Assembly (NCBI GenBank): GCA_902801805.1
Contig: CADCJP010000044.1
Coordinates: 1-10,048, forward strand
Length of the DNA stretch: 10,048 bases
Reading direction: 5' to 3'
Source: an uncultured Erysipelotrichaceae bacterium
GTDB lineage: Bacteria; Bacillota_I; Bacilli_A; RFN20; CAG-826
Positions 1,961-7,751 of the stretch are shown here, one piece after another. Numbering within the stretch: the stretch's first letter is position 1; every line of letters starts with the position of its first letter. Both the position numbers and the translations under genes were made by a program. Below the pieces are notes generated by a model, which was not told the origin of the DNA, ran no database searches, and saw only the letters and a list, made by a program, of their open reading frames with translations.

Positions 1961-2962
1961 ATGAAAAACAACATCTATCCAAAAAACTATCAAAGCGTTC
2001 TTAACTTAGTGGATACACAGATTGCGATTAAGTTAATCAAAGACACTTTTGAAAGAGAACTCGCTAAAGATTTAAAGCTAATTCGTGTCAGCGCTCCACT
2101 ATTCGTGGAACCAAATACTGGTTTAAACGATAACTTAAATGGTTATGAACAACCTGTCGGTTTCGTGGTTAATGAAAATAGCCAAGATTTAGAAATCGTT
2201 CAATCCTTAGCGAAATGGAAAAGATATGCTTTAAAGAAATATGATATCGATGGTCTATATACCGATATGAATGCGATTAGAAGATTTGAAGATCTTGATA
2301 ATATGCACTCATTATATGTTGACCAATGGGACTGGGAAAAAAGATTAACTAGTGAGGAAAGAAACGTTAAGACTTTAAAACGCACAGTTAAAAAGATTTA
2401 TAAATCATTCTTAAAAACATATCGCTTATTAGTGAAACGTTATCCAGAACTCGTTAACGATAACTTACCAAAAGACATTGCCTTTGTGACCACAAAACAA
2501 TTAGAAGCTAAATATCCAGAGATGAGCAGAAAAGAAAGAGAAAACGCTCTCGCTAAAGAATATGGTGCGGTTTTCTTAATGCAAATCGGTGGTAACTTAA
2601 AAGACGGTAAACCACACGATGGTAGAGCCGCGGACTATGATGATTGGAAACTAAACGGAGATATTTTACTTTGGTATGAACCACTACAAATTGCTTTTGA
2701 AATAAGCAGCATGGGTATCAGAGTTAATAAAGAATCATTAATGAAACAACTTAAAGCTAAAGGTGAAATGAGCAAGGTTAATCTTCCATACCATCAATTA
2801 GTGCTCAATGAACAAATCCCACTTTCTATCGGGGGTGGTATTGGTCAATCTCGTCTTTGTATGTATTTATTAAAAAAGATCCACATCGGAGAAGTGCAAT
2901 CCTCCTATTGGCCTGAAGAAGATATTAAAGAATTTAAGAAATATAACGTTGATCTACTTTAA
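1961..2962 (+). CDS. asnA: Aspartate-ammonia ligase (asparagine synthetase A)
   Basis: Makes asparagine from aspartate, ammonia and ATP; the fold is related to class II aminoacyl-tRNA synthetases. The 333 residues match the roughly 330 of known AsnA. Recognisable blocks are RVSAPLFVEPNTGLNDNLNG (42-61), WKRYAL (86-91), DQWDWE (121-126), DYDDWKLNGDI (225-235) and the ATP-site motif GGGIGQSRLCMYLL (291-304). It is the third gene of the thyA operon, starting one base after the folA stop with no strong ribosome binding site, which suggests coupled translation. The link to folate genes is by transcription only; I see no biochemical reason for it. The 3' end overlaps the opposite-strand HAD gene by 9 bases. 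Confidence 0.97.
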   Translation: MKNNIYPKNYQSVLNLVDTQIAIKLIKDTFERELAKDLKLIRVSAPLFVEPNTGLNDNLNGYEQPVGFVVNENSQDLEIVQSLAKWKRYALKKYDIDGLYTDMNAIRRFEDLDNMHSLYVDQWDWEKRLTSEERNVKTLKRTVKKIYKSFLKTYRLLVKRYPELVNDNLPKDIAFVTTKQLEAKYPEMSRKERENALAKEYGAVFLMQIGGNLKDGKPHDGRAADYDDWKLNGDILLWYEPLQIAFEISSMGIRVNKESLMKQLKAKGEMSKVNLPYHQLVLNEQIPLSIGGGIGQSRLCMYLLKKIHIGEVQSSYWPEEDIKEFKKYNVDLL

Positions 2963-3883
2963 TAAATTAAGTAATTCGCCAAAGTTATTGATAAAGAGGT
3001 GAGAATTCATCCTCTTTTCTTTATTGTACTTTTCACTAGCCTTATCATTAACGGCAACAGTTAAGAAACCTGCTTTGTAAGCAGTCCTCACACAAGTTGG
3101 CATATCTTCAAGCACTAAGACTCTTTCTTTATCAACATGCATTTGTTCCGCAAGAAATTCATAGATTCTCGAACTTTGCTTGCCTTCTTTAACGTTGTTA
3201 ACATCAGCGATATATGTGAAGTATTTATCTAAGCCAAGTCTTTTAATGCATGGCATATATAATGTATCGTCGTTTGCTGTAGCGATTGCCATTGGGATAT
3301 TATTCTTTTTAAAAAATTCGAGTAACGCTAAAGAATAGTCTTTTAGTTTCACATCGTTTGCGTACATATCAATGGACATTTGATGCCATTCATCCATGAT
3401 TTCTTGTTCGCTTTCTTTGATACCATAGGTATTCTTAGTAAACTTAGCCGCTTCTTTTAAACCAAGATGCACAATATTTTGAGCGTAATCACTTGGTAAT
3501 TCCATTCCTCTTTTAGAGAAGAACTTTTTATCAATTTCATGCCATAGACTTGTGGAATCAATTAATGTTCCATCCATATCAAATATAACCGCGTCAAATC
3601 TACGACCATTTATTGCTAAATAGTTTTGTTCTGGTTTCACTTCGTGGGCTAAAGCAAGGATCAATGTTGGAATAGCCATAATGACTGTCGCACCAAGTTC
3701 GTGGGCTAAAGCAAGGATCAATGTTGGAATAGCCATAATGACTGTCGCACCAAGAAAGCCAACACCAAACCAAAATAAAGCGCCAGTACTAAAGAAAGCA
3801 ATAGAGGTGATTAAAAGCATTCCTGTAATCACATACAAGATAATTTGTAATGAACTAATCTTTCTTTTCTTTACTTCGCTCAT
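2954..3883 (-). CDS. Membrane-anchored HAD-family hydrolase with internal 19-residue duplication
   Basis: The C-terminal part (about 95-309) is a haloacid dehalogenase-superfamily phosphatase or mutase of the beta-phosphoglucomutase-like type. Motif I is FDMDGTLIDS (101-110; nucleophile Asp102, acid/base Asp104), motif II is Thr202 in IATAND, the motif III lysine is Lys232 or Lys235, and motif IV is LEDMP with Glu259-Asp260. The substrate cannot be told from sequence. The N-terminus is unusual for this family: a basic MSEVKKRK is followed by hydrophobic segments at about 12-34 and 36-60. Residues 44-62 are then repeated exactly as 63-81, adding a further hydrophobic stretch. The start codon is preceded by GGTGAAA ten bases upstream, and this lies inside the birA remnant whose TGA stop overlaps the ATG. 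It is last in the leftward block and has no clear promoter of its own. Confidence 0.9.
   Translation of the reverse strand: MSEVKKRKISSLQIILYVITGMLLITSIAFFSTGALFWFGVGFLGATVIMAIPTLILALAHELGATVIMAIPTLILALAHEVKPEQNYLAINGRRFDAVIFDMDGTLIDSTSLWHEIDKKFFSKRGMELPSDYAQNIVHLGLKEAAKFTKNTYGIKESEQEIMDEWHQMSIDMYANDVKLKDYSLALLEFFKKNNIPMAIATANDDTLYMPCIKRLGLDKYFTYIADVNNVKEGKQSSRIYEFLAEQMHVDKERVLVLEDMPTCVRTAYKAGFLTVAVNDKASEKYNKEKRMNSHLFINNFGELLNLLK
2993..3020 (+). terminator. Possible hairpin terminator downstream of asnA
   Basis: AAAGAGG (2993-2999) and CCTCTTT (3011-3017) are inverted repeats around an 11-base loop, followed by a T-rich tail. This is about 30 bases beyond the asnA stop, but inside the 3' coding end of the convergent HAD gene. 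The stem is short and the tail is interrupted, so the call is tentative. Confidence 0.3.
3641..3754. repeat. Perfect 57-bp direct tandem duplication
   Basis: Bases 3641-3697 and 3698-3754 are identical over all 57 positions and directly abut. The unit is 19 codons, so the HAD reading frame is kept, and the segment LGATVIMAIPTLILALAHE occurs twice. The absence of any difference between copies implies a very recent event, or an assembly or read artefact. Confidence 0.97.
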
Positions 3884-3963
3884 AATATTTCTATTTCACC
3901 ATTATCAATATGAAAAAGCATATCACCATCAACCATTTTCAGGAAGAGAAAATGATTATCAGT
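3880..3963 (-). pseudogene. Remnant of a birA 3' end
   Basis: On the reverse strand this 27-codon stretch ends MLFHIDNGEIEIL followed by TGA. Its last 13 residues match the end of the intact BirA (MLLHVDSGEIEIL) at 10 positions, and the upstream DN-x-F also aligns to DNSF with one extra codon. At DNA level the 14 bases ATTTCTATTTCACC are identical in both places and about 33 of the first 37 aligned bases agree. An in-frame TAA at 3966-3964 cuts it off, so no full ligase is present. Its TGA overlaps the HAD ATG as ATGA, and its GGTGAA supplies the likely ribosome binding site of the HAD gene, which may be why it persists. Homology is seen in the sequence; the history is inferred. Confidence 0.75.
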
Positions 3964-4010
3964 TTATTGTAATATGATTTTTAAGATGGTTTATATTTGG
4001 TTACAACGCG

Positions 4011-5720
4011 TTACCAATATTCTACCAACATTTTTCCAATGGATAGTCTTCCTTTGTTGCGGTCGTTCAATGGATTTCTGCATTGAGCGTAGAACACTAT
4101 ATCGTTTGTATCTGCAGGAAAGTCAATATTTACATGAGTTGGGTAAGCTCTGTCAGTTGATAAGTTTACATCAGTCCATAAATTTACTGCCGTCGTATAA
4201 TAATTGTCAGGAGTCAAATAATCAATTGTGTAAATGGAATCGCTCGGATCGACTCTTTCGTTTGGGCTCCACCACGAAAGAAGCACTTCAATATGTTTCA
4301 CTTCTCTCGTGAAAGCGAGTTGAAGATAAGCTAATCCGGTTTCATATCTCTTAGGTGAAAGATTTACGCATTCTTTCTCGATAAAACCACATCTCAGCCT
4401 TTCAGTATTAATCACTTCGTTTGTATTAGGCAAAACAAAACTATGCTCTGTTGGAATGTTTTGGCTGCCATAAGAAGATGGAAAACCATAATCTGAAGGC
4501 GATATGATGTTATATGTTCTATCATTGGTTGGTGAATAATAGGCATTTTTGTCAATAAAAATGTAATTATTACTTCTCTTTTTGAGTTTGTTTGTTAAGT
4601 TCAAAGCCCAATAATCAGACATTTGAATATTAAAGAAGCTGTCTAAACTCGTGCAAGTATGGGAACTCCCCCATCCTAAATTTCCGTACAAGACGTCGTC
4701 ATCTTCGTCGTAATAATACGCAACAGCAATATGTCCAAAAGTTTGTTCTGTTTCAGAATCCTGTGCACCATTGCCATTGTGGTCAGTATACCCATTGCCA
4801 CCCATCAAAACTGGGCGACCGGTTTTAACTATTTCCACTATTTCAGATCGAATTCTTTGTTTCTCAGATTCACTATCATCTTCCATTTTCGATTTGACAA
4901 TTAATACTTTGCCTCTTGTATGAAAATTCCCATCAATAACGCCAGAAAGAACTGTGCTCATAATGTAATTATTTACTCCAATTCCACTCAAATATTCGCC
5001 ATCAGAAACTGAACAATTTGGAATAAAACGAGATTTAAGTATGCCTTTGTCAACGGCGATTTGAAAAAGATTGCCCAAAAAAGTCCCAGAATCAATTTGT
5101 TCTAAAATAAAATCTGTTATTCTTCTATCGAGTAATTCTTTAAATTCATCAGAATTCTCGTTCGTTATACCTTTCTTTTCAATCTCTTTTTTTATTGAAT
5201 CAATTGACGGTCCTGAAGGGCTAATATTGTTCCAAACACCTGGAGATTGATAGGAAGAATAACTAGGAGAATATAACGATCCGCTTGGTATCGATGCTGC
5301 TATTGAATCGTACTTTTCATCAATAAAATTGTCGTTCCAGTATGAATCATAATACGAAAGCAGCATTGAAATACCTGTATACCCACACACACCCATGGTG
5401 TTTCTTGGAAAATTTTCACTCAAGTGAGCAAAATAAGTCCAGAGGAAATCCTTGTTTGGAACAAACGAATCGCCTTCAAAAGAATTCAATTGAGAATCTG
5501 ACGAATTCTCTATGTCGTCATACGATGAAAAAGACTCTAGATTAAGTCCGTTTGCTTCAGCTGGCATTGTCAAATTGAACAAACCAGTATCATAACTTGT
5601 ATTTAGATGAGTTAATAACGAATTATATGAATGATTGTTTTTCACAGAAGAACTGCGTGGAGTAGCATTAATTCCAGGCAGAGATAAAATAGTGGCAAAC
5701 AAAAAAGAGATTCTACGCAT
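4011..5720 (-). CDS. Secreted papain-like cysteine peptidase (putative)
   Basis: A 569-residue protein, probably an exported cysteine protease acting outside the cell or at its surface. The N-terminus (MRRISFLFATILSLPGINAT) looks like a short signal peptide, followed by a Ser/Asn-rich stretch to about 90 that could be a propeptide. The catalytic core shows Cys112 in GVCGYTGISMLLSYYDSYW, the pattern of C39- and papain-like nucleophiles at a helix start, then His330 in FGHIAVAYYY and Asn347 in YGNLGWG, in the expected Cys-His-Asn order. Between them is a long, mostly helical insert (about 170-300). The C-terminal part (about 455-569) is rich in predicted beta strands and ends DRNKGRLSIGKMLVEYW; it may be an accessory binding domain. 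The start is backed by TAGGTAA eight bases upstream, overlapping the stop of the lipoprotein gene. Leu and Arg codons are more varied (TTG, CTA, CTC, CTG, CGT, CGC) than in nearby housekeeping genes, which suggests transfer. The substrate is unknown. Confidence 0.75.
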   Translation of the reverse strand: MRRISFLFATILSLPGINATPRSSSVKNNHSYNSLLTHLNTSYDTGLFNLTMPAEANGLNLESFSSYDDIENSSDSQLNSFEGDSFVPNKDFLWTYFAHLSENFPRNTMGVCGYTGISMLLSYYDSYWNDNFIDEKYDSIAASIPSGSLYSPSYSSYQSPGVWNNISPSGPSIDSIKKEIEKKGITNENSDEFKELLDRRITDFILEQIDSGTFLGNLFQIAVDKGILKSRFIPNCSVSDGEYLSGIGVNNYIMSTVLSGVIDGNFHTRGKVLIVKSKMEDDSESEKQRIRSEIVEIVKTGRPVLMGGNGYTDHNGNGAQDSETEQTFGHIAVAYYYDEDDDVLYGNLGWGSSHTCTSLDSFFNIQMSDYWALNLTNKLKKRSNNYIFIDKNAYYSPTNDRTYNIISPSDYGFPSSYGSQNIPTEHSFVLPNTNEVINTERLRCGFIEKECVNLSPKRYETGLAYLQLAFTREVKHIEVLLSWWSPNERVDPSDSIYTIDYLTPDNYYTTAVNLWTDVNLSTDRAYPTHVNIDFPADTNDIVFYAQCRNPLNDRNKGRLSIGKMLVEYW

Positions 5721-5729
5721 AAAAGTTAC

Positions 5730-6158
5730 CTACCCGTAAATAGCAAAATGAATAGTGAGATTTTCTGAAAGAATAGATGATTTTAGAAAATTAGTTGCAA
5801 AGCCTGTTTCCTTGTTAAAATCAACAACGAATTGTGTAAAGGACCAATAACCGTCGCCATTTAATTTTGGAATTGTATAGTGAAGTGAAGCTGCTTTGAT
5901 ATTTTCAATTTCTTTTAAAGTTAAATAATAATCTCTTTCATATTCCTTTGTTGTTACAGCAAGTTCATCATCCATAAAGAAATATCCATTTCCATTTCCG
6001 CTTTCGTCAAAAGAAAAATTGATAAATGAGTGCTGTATAAAAGTAAGAACTATAGTGTCACTTTGTTTTGTCTCGCTTGTGCTTTTCTTGTCAACACATC
6101 CTGTAGCGAGACACAAAGTCGCAAAAAGAGTGCAAACAGCGGATTTAAAATGTTTCAT
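5730..6158 (-). CDS. Small lipoprotein encoded just upstream of the cysteine peptidase
   Basis: A 142-residue protein with a lysine-containing n-region, a hydrophobic core and a lipobox-like LATGC, placing the lipidated cysteine at 21. The mature part begins with a polar linker (VDKKSTSETKQSD) and then looks beta-rich, with a Gly/Asn turn at about 54-59 and an aromatic C-terminal half ending TIHFAIYG. I recognise no family. Its stop lies 9 bases before the peptidase start and contributes to that gene's ribosome binding site, so the two are co-transcribed and probably act together; a membrane-tethered partner, inhibitor or chaperone of the peptidase is possible but unproven. Its own ATG has no Shine-Dalgarno sequence although a good promoter sits 22 bases upstream. 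Confidence 0.75.
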   Translation of the reverse strand: MKHFKSAVCTLFATLCLATGCVDKKSTSETKQSDTIVLTFIQHSFINFSFDESGNGNGYFFMDDELAVTTKEYERDYYLTLKEIENIKAASLHYTIPKLNGDGYWSFTQFVVDFNKETGFATNFLKSSILSENLTIHFAIYG

Positions 6159-6179
6159 AATAATTGTTCAACTATAGGT

Positions 6180-6208
6180 AGTATAAATCGTGCAATTAAA
6201 ATTGTAAA
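6180..6208 (-). promoter_or_regulatory. Sigma-A-type promoter of the lipoprotein-peptidase operon
   Basis: Read leftwards, TTTACA (6208-6203, 5 of 6 to TTGACA) and TATACT (6185-6180, 5 of 6 to TATAAT) are separated by exactly 17 bases. Initiation would fall near 6173, giving a 15-base leader before the ATG at 6158. This is the best -35/-10 pair in the window. Confidence 0.7.
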
Positions 6209-6239
6209 TAAGTTATGAATTAGTCAGATTTTTTTGTAT

Positions 6240-6254
6240 TTATTATCATTATGA
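6240..6254. promoter_or_regulatory. Possible Fur/PerR-type 7-1-7 box
   Basis: Read leftwards this is TCATAATGATAATAA, which agrees with the Bacillus PerR consensus TTATAATNATTATAA at 12 of 14 defined positions. It lies about 30 bases upstream of the -35 of the lipoprotein-peptidase promoter. In DNA this rich in A and T a chance match is quite possible. Confidence 0.25.
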
Positions 6255-6274
6255 TCTGCTTATTTTAGAAGAAA

Positions 6275-6308
6275 TAATTAACATTTTGAATGTGTTGTCT
6301 GTTAATTA
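6275..6308. repeat. 9-bp inverted repeat beyond the birA stop
   Basis: TAATTAACA (6275-6283) and TGTTAATTA (6300-6308) form a perfect inverted repeat with a 16-base spacer, starting 12 bases past the birA stop. The stem is A+T-rich and lacks a T tract, so it is a poor terminator. It could be a protein-binding site or a scar at the edge of the inserted module. The rest of 6159-6319 holds the promoter and possible operator listed separately. Confidence 0.4.
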
Positions 6309-6319
6309 AAACAAAAATC

Positions 6320-7030
6320 TCATACTTTGAGAATTTCTATTTCACCGCTATCAACATGTAAAAGCATACCGTGAGTGGCGACTTGAAGACAAAAAGAATT
6401 ATCAATTCCCACTACTTCACCAATGAATGTTTGATTATTAACAACGGCCTTAACTCTTTTATTTGATAAATAGTTATGTTTTCTAAAATAGTCCAAAGAC
6501 TTTTCTAAGTCCAAATTAGTTAAAGAACCTACTAACTGTGGAAATAGTTTTTCTTTAAGTTCTTCGATATTAATATCTTTCTTATGTTCTAAGCATAATG
6601 ATGTCGCCGGTCTTCTTAATCCTTCAGGGAACTTCTTTTGATTAACGTTAAGACCAATGCCCACGACCATATAATCAGGTAATTGACCTTCTGCGAGAAT
6701 GCCACATACCTTCTTATCATTAATTAAGACGTCGTTAGGCCATTTTATGCTCACATGCTTGATTTTATATGTCTCTAATGCTTTTGCGACCTCTACTGCG
6801 CTTAAAAGGGAAATAATTGGTGATTGCTTCAATAAACTCTCATCCTTAATCAAAAACGAGAACATGAGGTTTTCACCCGGTTCACTAGACCAAGTTCTAT
6901 CATTTCTACCTTTACCATGACTTTGATAATCAGTGGACACAAAAGTAAAGTTACTTAATAACTTATAAGTATTTTTTATATATGTATTCGTAGAATCTAT
7001 TTCTTGAAAATGAATTTGATGATATTGCAT
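6320..7030 (-). CDS. birA: Biotin-[acetyl-CoA-carboxylase] ligase, monofunctional
   Basis: Activates biotin with ATP to biotinyl-AMP and attaches it to the lysine of biotin carrier domains; here the obvious acceptor is the carrier protein at 9279-9623. With the start at MQYHQIHFQEIDSTN the protein is 236 residues, the size of a class I ligase lacking the N-terminal DNA-binding domain, so it should not repress transcription. Motifs in order are DSTN (12-15), the biotinyl-AMP loop GKGRNDRTW (39-47), KWPND (96-100) with the catalytic Lys96, and GIGLNVN (124-130). The C-terminal domain ends HVDSGEIEILKV. The frame stays open upstream to 7162, but that extension crosses a terminator and the preceding gene, so ATG 7030 is preferred. 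No Shine-Dalgarno lies at a proper distance. Confidence 0.94.
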   Translation of the reverse strand: MQYHQIHFQEIDSTNTYIKNTYKLLSNFTFVSTDYQSHGKGRNDRTWSSEPGENLMFSFLIKDESLLKQSPIISLLSAVEVAKALETYKIKHVSIKWPNDVLINDKKVCGILAEGQLPDYMVVGIGLNVNQKKFPEGLRRPATSLCLEHKKDINIEELKEKLFPQLVGSLTNLDLEKSLDYFRKHNYLSNKRVKAVVNNQTFIGEVVGIDNSFCLQVATHGMLLHVDSGEIEILKV

Positions 7031-7036
7031 GTGTTT

Positions 7037-7065
7037 ATTGTAAAACAAAAAAGCCTCCGCTTTAA
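7037..7065 (-). promoter_or_regulatory. Candidate birA promoter embedded in a terminator
   Basis: Read leftwards, TACAAT (7042-7037, 5 of 6 to TATAAT) lies six bases before the birA ATG; the -35 position 17 bases further up holds only TTAAAG, inside the terminator loop. Initiation at the usual distance would fall on or next to the A of the ATG, giving a leaderless message. Confidence 0.4.
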
Positions 7066-7074
7066 GCGAAGACT
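7047..7074 (-). terminator. Rho-independent terminator of the lipoprotein gene at 7080
   Basis: Read leftwards, AGTCTTCGC and GCGGAGGCT form a 9-bp stem with two G-U pairs and a five-base loop, followed by a run of Ts. It starts six bases beyond the lipoprotein stop codon and ends about 17 bases before the birA start. Confidence 0.88.
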
Positions 7075-7079
7075 GTTTT

Positions 7080-7751
7080 TTATTGCTGCGCTTTGAACTT
7101 ATCCCAGCTAACAAGTTGATATGTTGTAAGATCGGTATATAAGTAGCCGTCACCAACTGCATATGGTGAATCGTCTGGATTTTCTCCTTTGTTGTATTTC
7201 AGTTCACGAGCTCCAAGCATCTTTTTTTCATCATAGCCAATTATACCCGGTTTTGATTTTTCAAATACCACACCAGCATAATCGTGGTTGCTTTGTAATT
7301 CGTTATAGCCTATATCCACCGCCATATCTTGTTTCTCTCTTAAGTTAAAAGCGCCAATTTGTAAGATGTGGCGTCCACTGCCAATATCACGGCTATAATA
7401 AAGTGCTTCTTTATATTCGCCTTTATAATAGGCCAACCTAGTAAATCCATGCGTATTATCCATACGGATAGAATATACTTCACCTTGATATACTAAGACA
7501 TCAATAATGGATAAATCATAAGCGTATAATTTACAAACTCCATTAAGCTCTTTTGGTGTAACGTCATATCTTTGGCTGCTGTAACTATAGAAAGGATTGA
7601 GCTCCTTTAGTTTTTCAGCGTATTCACTAGGCATCTCTTCACCGAATTCTGAACAGCCAAAAATCACAAGTGTTTCTTTTCTTGTGGTTTGCTCACAGCC
7701 AGCAAGAATAGGAATGATGCATAATAGTTTAAATAGTTTTGTCATACTCAT
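7080..7751 (-). CDS. Lipoprotein of unknown function
   Basis: A 223-residue exported protein. The N-terminus MSMTKLFKLLCIIPILAGCEQ has a basic n-region, a hydrophobic core and a clean lipobox LAGC with the lipidated cysteine at 19. The mature part is rich in Tyr and in short predicted beta strands (for example KLYAYDLSIIDVLVYQGEVY at 74-93), and I recognise no domain. An alternative start two codons in (ATG at 7745) is equally plausible; neither has a good Shine-Dalgarno sequence. The gene stands alone between two terminators, so it is monocistronic, and its promoter must lie in 7752-7822, where I see no convincing -35/-10 pair. Confidence 0.85.
   Translation of the reverse strand: MSMTKLFKLLCIIPILAGCEQTTRKETLVIFGCSEFGEEMPSEYAEKLKELNPFYSYSSQRYDVTPKELNGVCKLYAYDLSIIDVLVYQGEVYSIRMDNTHGFTRLAYYKGEYKEALYYSRDIGSGRHILQIGAFNLREKQDMAVDIGYNELQSNHDYAGVVFEKSKPGIIGYDEKKMLGARELKYNKGENPDDSPYAVGDGYLYTDLTTYQLVSWDKFKAQQ

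Follow-up and report, generated by a model that had tools for sequence, protein, structure and literature searches.

A fossil birA 3' end and a kinase-associated repeat at the interrupted birA–HAD junction of an uncultured Erysipelotrichaceae bacterium

The birA–HAD locus

The window analysed here is a stretch of 10,048 nucleotides (nt) from an uncultured Erysipelotrichaceae bacterium (contig CADCJP010000044.1, assembly GCA_902801805.1), and coordinates are positions in it unless another locus is named. It carries on its minus strand a biotin ligase gene, birA, and a HAD phosphatase gene, which are separated by two further genes and by a second, diverged copy of the birA tail, termed the fossil here. 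The intact birA (6320..7030), identified from the list of open reading frames (ORFs), a domain match and a comparison of 3'-end identities, has a changed 3' end and is followed after 12 nt by a diverged copy of a repeat (6272..6308, minus strand) that in other genomes brackets a kinase gene. The cargo consists of a small lipoprotein gene of 142 amino acids (aa; 5730..6158), to which neither Pfam nor NCBIfam assigns a family at E 0.01, and a 569-aa secreted cysteine peptidase gene (4011..5720) that matches NF045837 with 46.5 bits against a cutoff of 45, its match to Pfam Peptidase_C39_2 being below cutoff. The HAD gene (2954..3883; HAD_2, 7e-25) encodes an N-terminal membrane segment.

The fossil occupies positions 3880..3963 of the minus strand. 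The HAD gene starts at 3883 and the TGA of the fossil lies at 3882-3880, and hence the two share the sequence ATGA, in agreement with an earlier note on this DNA. The frame ahead of the HAD gene is open for 27 codons and reads TDNHFLFLKMVDGDMLFHIDNGEIEIL before its stop. At the DNA level the fossil matches the birA end over 36 nt at 89% identity with a spacing of 2446 nt, and its local score of 52 is reached by none of 2000 dinucleotide shuffles (maximum 33). A hidden Markov model of birA built from 10 uninterrupted relatives finds the fossil peptide with E=9e-5, second only to birA itself among 268 six-frame peptides of the window, the next having E=2.4. The claim of the earlier note that the 84 bases before the HAD gene are a diverged BirA C-terminus is thereby confirmed, and the fossil is real. 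Its further claim that both copies retain an ATGAG junction does not stand. The intact birA genes of three other interrupted loci end differently (AATAAATGAATT in G001, CTATAAGG in G004 and CTTTAGAG in G006), and therefore the GTATGAG at the end of the window's intact birA looks like a coincidence.

The ancestral junction

A scan with birA found five close relatives, a contig that breaks off within birA and a pair of distant loci from Rikenellaceae, to which the genus of the nearest genome (G001) added more. This genus comprises 16 genomes, 13 of which have birA together with its HAD gene. The two genes are uninterrupted in 11 of these 13 (G002, G003, G005, G007-G012, G014 and G015), with the ATGA overlap in all but G008, where the overlap is longer. 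The interrupted loci of the genus are those of G001 and G006, and G004, which belongs to the same family, is interrupted as well. No match to birA was found in G013, G016 and G017; the HAD gene is likewise unmatched in G016 and G017 and has only a distant relative in G013.

In more distant relatives birA is fused to a membrane-type HAD. A birA domain is also present in 14 of the 120 HAD homologues listed (of 1919), which are about 520 aa long. These biotin ligase–membrane segment–HAD fusions are P0139-P0143, P0148, P0151-P0153, P0157, P0161, P0171, P0192 and P0195, and the best birA–HAD homologue among those listed, P0139, shows 77% identity over 70% of the query. The five fusions that were read contain birA, the membrane segment and HAD in a single chain, which suggests that birA and HAD belong together in the wider group of membrane-type HAD proteins as well. 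The uninterrupted loci and the fusions bear out the proposal that birA and the HAD gene were once overlapping neighbours, and the prediction that module-free strains would have birA abutting the HAD gene holds for the 11 loci. The comparison shows that in the ancestral state birA leads straight into HAD, the two overlapping briefly.

Four interrupted loci with different cargo

The four interrupted loci (the window, G001, G004 and G006) differ in what they carry. The gap holds the lipoprotein and the peptidase in the window, the lipoprotein alone in G001 and a 433-aa HipA-fold kinase in both G004 and G006. A second birA tail precedes the HAD gene at every one of them; that of G004 is fresh and that of G006 decayed. 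Each locus also has a related repeat of about 36 nt that begins 12-28 nt after the birA stop codon. The order in G004 and G006 is birA, repeat, kinase, repeat, birA tail and HAD, the second direct copy of the repeat lying at the kinase stop codon and matching the first at 36/36 positions in G004 and 34/35 in G006. The left repeat of G001 has a score that none of 2000 shuffles reaches, and that of the window, scored against the G004 repeat, is reached by one of 2000. The window copy is also found by a sequence model of the repeat, a model which itself included that copy. The suggestion that about 2.3 kb arrived as one element is not borne out, as G001 has the lipoprotein only and G004 and G006 have the kinase instead; what the loci have in common is the repeat of the kinase cassette.

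Lipoprotein and peptidase genes adjoin elsewhere too, in G013 (beside a tRNA-like sequence) and in G219 (L175 4427-6582 and L176), and the pair looks like a two-gene unit by its gene order.

The kinase and its flanking repeats

The kinase was surveyed at 30 of the 33 best family loci, with their flanks; G052, which is cut by a contig end, G049 and G136 were left out. Matching repeats lie on both sides of the gene at 26 of the 30 loci, G036, G188, G033 and G043 being the exceptions to the rule, and of two loci outside the kinase family G228 has repeats and G230 has none. None of 96 other ORFs at the same loci reaches the lowest kinase-repeat score (maximum 32 versus 42). In G004 the top flank alignment is the birA tail, and its repeat pair comes from a separate comparison. 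The left copy ends at most 20 nt from the kinase start at 24 of the 26 loci and further away in that alignment in G191 and G046, while the right copy overlaps or abuts the kinase stop codon in all 26. Copies of one locus are on average 92% alike and copies of different loci 68%. By these comparisons the 36-nt repeat is to be regarded as belonging to the kinase. The neighbours of the 30 loci are mostly unshared, the sharing being found mainly within G160/G168 and G200/G208/G210 and partly among G011/G024/G027, and no common neighbour, including an adjacent antitoxin gene, was seen across them; the repeats sit just before the ATG and at the stop codon.

The kinase was found to have a HipA fold, with the catalytic residues N322, D324, R325, H326, N329 and D349 present in all 30 proteins; a second set of 25 shows slight variation at D324 and H326 and none at the other four. 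Unlike the HipA of hipBA (structures 3dnv and 4pu5), it has no HipB-type partner gene in sight, it has a repeat on both sides of its gene and it is modelled with an extra N-terminal region of three strands plus a helix. This extension is at best weakly similar to DUF6788, in 5 of 25 members with a best E of 0.008. According to PMC8262856, YjjJ and HipL are single-gene HipA homologues without a neighbouring antitoxin, as is the kinase here. YjjJ also carries an N-terminal extension, which binds DNA; the one here differs in being at best weakly like DUF6788. Neither direct repeat nor inverted repeat occurs as a term in the main text of that paper. A literature search found no recognisable account of repeat-bracketed HipA genes or of a birA/HAD insertion site, which is no proof of their absence in print. 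Among plasmids (10 records) and phages (4 records) the only HipA relatives had less than 30% identity, and viral contigs gave no record.

The possibility that the repeat is a genome-wide one was rejected, since the sequence model gave strong matches within the genus only at the birA/HAD locus and a weaker one in G011, beside that genome's own kinase gene. Weak matches occur in G010 and G003, with no kinase seen nearby, and no flanking repeats were found at a stand-alone small protein of G009 that is related to the kinase N-terminus. The repeat of G004 and G006 recalls the dif site of Xer recombination, but the arms of the other repeats differ (TAACCTAY...TAGGTTA), and this candidate was set aside without a search for chromosomal dif. 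Tail duplications were sought at other kinase loci as well; the signal in G025 comes from two tRNA-like genes, and those in G029, G150 and G208 are short and low-scoring (p 0.025, 0.035 and 0.01). In G160 the kinase and the gene ahead of the left repeat end in similar codons (L148 5285-5301 and L148 3924-3940).

Gain and loss at the repeats

Integron gene cassettes consist of a single gene with a recombination site overlapping its stop codon. The kinase resembles them in being one gene whose stop codon is overlapped by a recombination-like site, but its upstream repeat has promoter-like boxes and its sites are scattered rather than arrayed. Two sites show the kinase gene and its repeats present in some genomes and missing from others. 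The first lies downstream of the upstream neighbour of the G160 kinase, a gene found in 18 genomes, of which 8 were examined. The cassette is present in G160 and G168, whereas kinase and repeat are both missing from G163, G171, G174 and G164. In G178, where the upstream gene has 96% identity to its G160 counterpart, the kinase is missing and there is a single repeat. At the columns that distinguish the left and right copies of G160, this repeat agrees with the left copy 28 times in succession and after that with the right copy, the single switch falling inside the repeat; the exception is three columns at the very end of the alignment, amid gaps, which go the other way. This is what a reciprocal exchange between left and right copies would leave, either through loss of the cassette or as a site preceding its entry, and the pattern does not tell which enzyme acted. 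In G162 a comparable single repeat is present without a kinase, with more noise and with a score that none of 2000 shuffles reaches. At the second site G015 has a single repeat without a kinase (0/2000 shuffles) and what seems by eye to be the decayed start of a kinase gene, which points to deletion of the gene there and not to a clean exchange. G001, G006, G016, G017 and G013 show by eye neither kinase nor repeat at this site.

Three features expected of a mobile cassette are found, namely differing surroundings, empty sites in close relatives and recombination at the repeats. It may tentatively be proposed, at somewhat less than even odds, that the kinase is a one-gene mobile cassette in which the antitoxin of a HipA-fold kinase is replaced by a DNA-binding part at the N-terminus of the kinase itself, the left palindromic repeat serves as promoter and operator, the right repeat holds the stop codon, both act as ends for entry and exit, and the fossil is the footprint of an entry at a point where two reading frames overlap.

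Origin of the interruption

The window is probably (at roughly 70%) an old kinase-cassette insertion whose cargo was later swapped and whose fossil was kept as a leader of the HAD gene. A kinase cassette consisting of repeat, gene and repeat would have opened the birA/HAD junction in an ancestor, and it would have come with a duplicated birA tail that left both genes working. As the start region of the HAD gene lies inside birA, only an insertion with a duplicated tail keeps both genes functional. In the lineage of the window and G001 the kinase would then have been replaced by the lipoprotein, with or without the peptidase, and the left repeat would remain as a scar. In all four interrupted genomes, even the drifted G006, 25-36 open codons run up to the HAD start and end on it, in a sequence that was originally coding. 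It is plausible that the fossil persists for translation of the HAD gene, as a short leader frame that ends at the HAD start and would couple HAD translation to its own. The arrangement may have spread among strains through ordinary recombination in the flanking genes. Judged on gene content and repeats, the site is most readily described as a footprint of small accessory cassettes.

Several observations weigh against this reading. No right repeat can be demonstrated in the window, where a possible decayed copy beside the fossil (3956..3984, minus strand) is weak (p=0.016), or in G001 (p=0.074). That the G006 fossil is decayed and the G004 one fresh may mean separate events or loci mixed by recombination; the score of the G006 fossil is reached by 6, 39 and 61 of 2000 shuffles against the birA tails of G014, G002 and G006 itself. 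The G004 locus stands on a 3-kb contig, and its bin holds a second, 47% identical birA (G004:C1:15196-15903) and may therefore be mixed, while the birA of G006 is split over two contigs with different divergence. Across the 26 repeat-bearing kinase loci a duplicated gene tail was found only in G004, that of G006 not being significant in this comparison. The diverged end of the intact birA is also ambiguous. In the window and G001 this 3' end has diverged further than the sequence preceding it; between the window and G002 the last 72 nt or so are 79% identical, the preceding 90 nt 93% and other segments 83-91%, and no comparable drop at the birA end appears in two pairs of unbroken genomes. An imported alternative 3' end would fit this, as would relaxed constraint after loss of the overlap. 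The earlier note also expected unbroken birA ends to be nearer the fossil than the resident end. This holds for G004 (46/48 for its fossil against G002 and 43/48 for its own birA) and for the window against G014 (fossil 40, resident end 35 of 48), and it fails for the window against G002, G003 and G005 (fossil 37, resident end 39 of 48) and for G006 with its decayed fossil. A mosaic origin of birA was considered because of discordant nucleotide identities and set aside, as its third-codon-position identity between the window and G002 (72%) is in line with that of asnA, dfr and thyA (70-76%); the HAD gene (57%) and oadB (64%) are lower.

The four loci could instead stem from independent insertions at a hot spot, with no single ancestral opening followed by exchange of cargo. 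The differing cargo and the unequal decay of the fossils speak for this, as does the birA identity to the window, which for the uninterrupted G002, G003 and G005 (87.7-88.5%) is about that of G004 (89.6%). What argues the other way is that all four loci have the same left repeat and that their fossils start near one common position of birA; independent insertion is a possible but doubtful account. It is unlikely that the repeats are merely paired operators of a self-regulated kinase, with the exchange seen in G178 being plain homologous recombination and not a route of spread. The left copy has, by eye in G147 and G166, a -35-like TTGAAA and a -10-like box 16-17 nt on, placed for an mRNA start near the ATG, the arms are palindromic, and 17 of 36 mismatches between left and right copies in 19 ungapped pairs fall in the central third, all of which would suit operators. 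No promoter role is evident, however, for the right copy, which sits at the stop codon, 6 of the 19 pairs are identical throughout, the partner at the same locus is at least tied for the closest repeat in 21 of 26 loci, and the switch in G178 falls within the repeat.

A local tandem duplication of birA and its upstream neighbour, with the downstream birA decayed to a tail, would need no mobile cassette. Boundary duplications do occur here, as a lipoprotein of the same family lies directly upstream of birA in G006 between two copies of the birA terminator, and the two tails of G004 match at 43/48. This origin is nonetheless improbable, since no birA remnant is seen at the fossil beyond the last 75-80 nt or so and the kinase-cassette repeat follows birA directly in all four loci.

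Where islands and prophages integrate into gene ends, the intact gene gains a new 3' end and its old end is left beyond the insert. The window shares this arrangement, yet site-specific integration at the birA 3' end of an integrase-type element that restored birA with its own end, to which the earlier note had likened the locus, is very improbable, as the ORFs between birA and HAD in the window, G001, G004 and G006 are cargo only and none is an integrase (recombinases were not searched for outside the loci), the cargo is one or two genes that vary between genomes, and fossil and resident tail share no identical core (35, 38, 43 and 31 of 48 in the window, G001, G004 and G006). A further difference from such islands is that here the next gene has its start region in the old tail.

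Neighbouring features

The membrane segment of the HAD protein is present in G001 and unmatched in the HAD proteins of the 11 uninterrupted relatives, G004 and G006. Within it an exact 57-bp tandem duplication (3641-3754) adds 19 aa, which G001 and P0121 lack. The convergent asnA and HAD genes overlap by 9 bp at their 3' ends (2954-2962). Upstream of birA a terminator-like hairpin (7047..7074, minus strand) was recognised by eye, and its homologue occurs twice in G006, flanking the lipoprotein gene there. Beyond it lies a 223-aa putative lipoprotein (7080-7751) whose promoter region is seemingly common, by eye, with that of the different lipoprotein at this place in G006. The genes between oadB and birA vary among genomes, which together with the terminator pair of G006 points to the same plasticity upstream of birA. 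In G001 the interval from oadB to birA holds a lone Phd-type antitoxin gene, to which an ORF of G006 is similar (L006 5143-5950; L001 5695-5949).

Significance

The birA/HAD junction offers a clean natural case of how an insertion between overlapping genes is tolerated, namely by duplicating the tail of the first gene while the start of the second is kept. Gain, loss and toxicity of the kinase cassette are directly testable. The arrangement in rumen Bacilli of a HipA-type kinase without an antitoxin gene, set between matching palindromic repeats, merits separate study.

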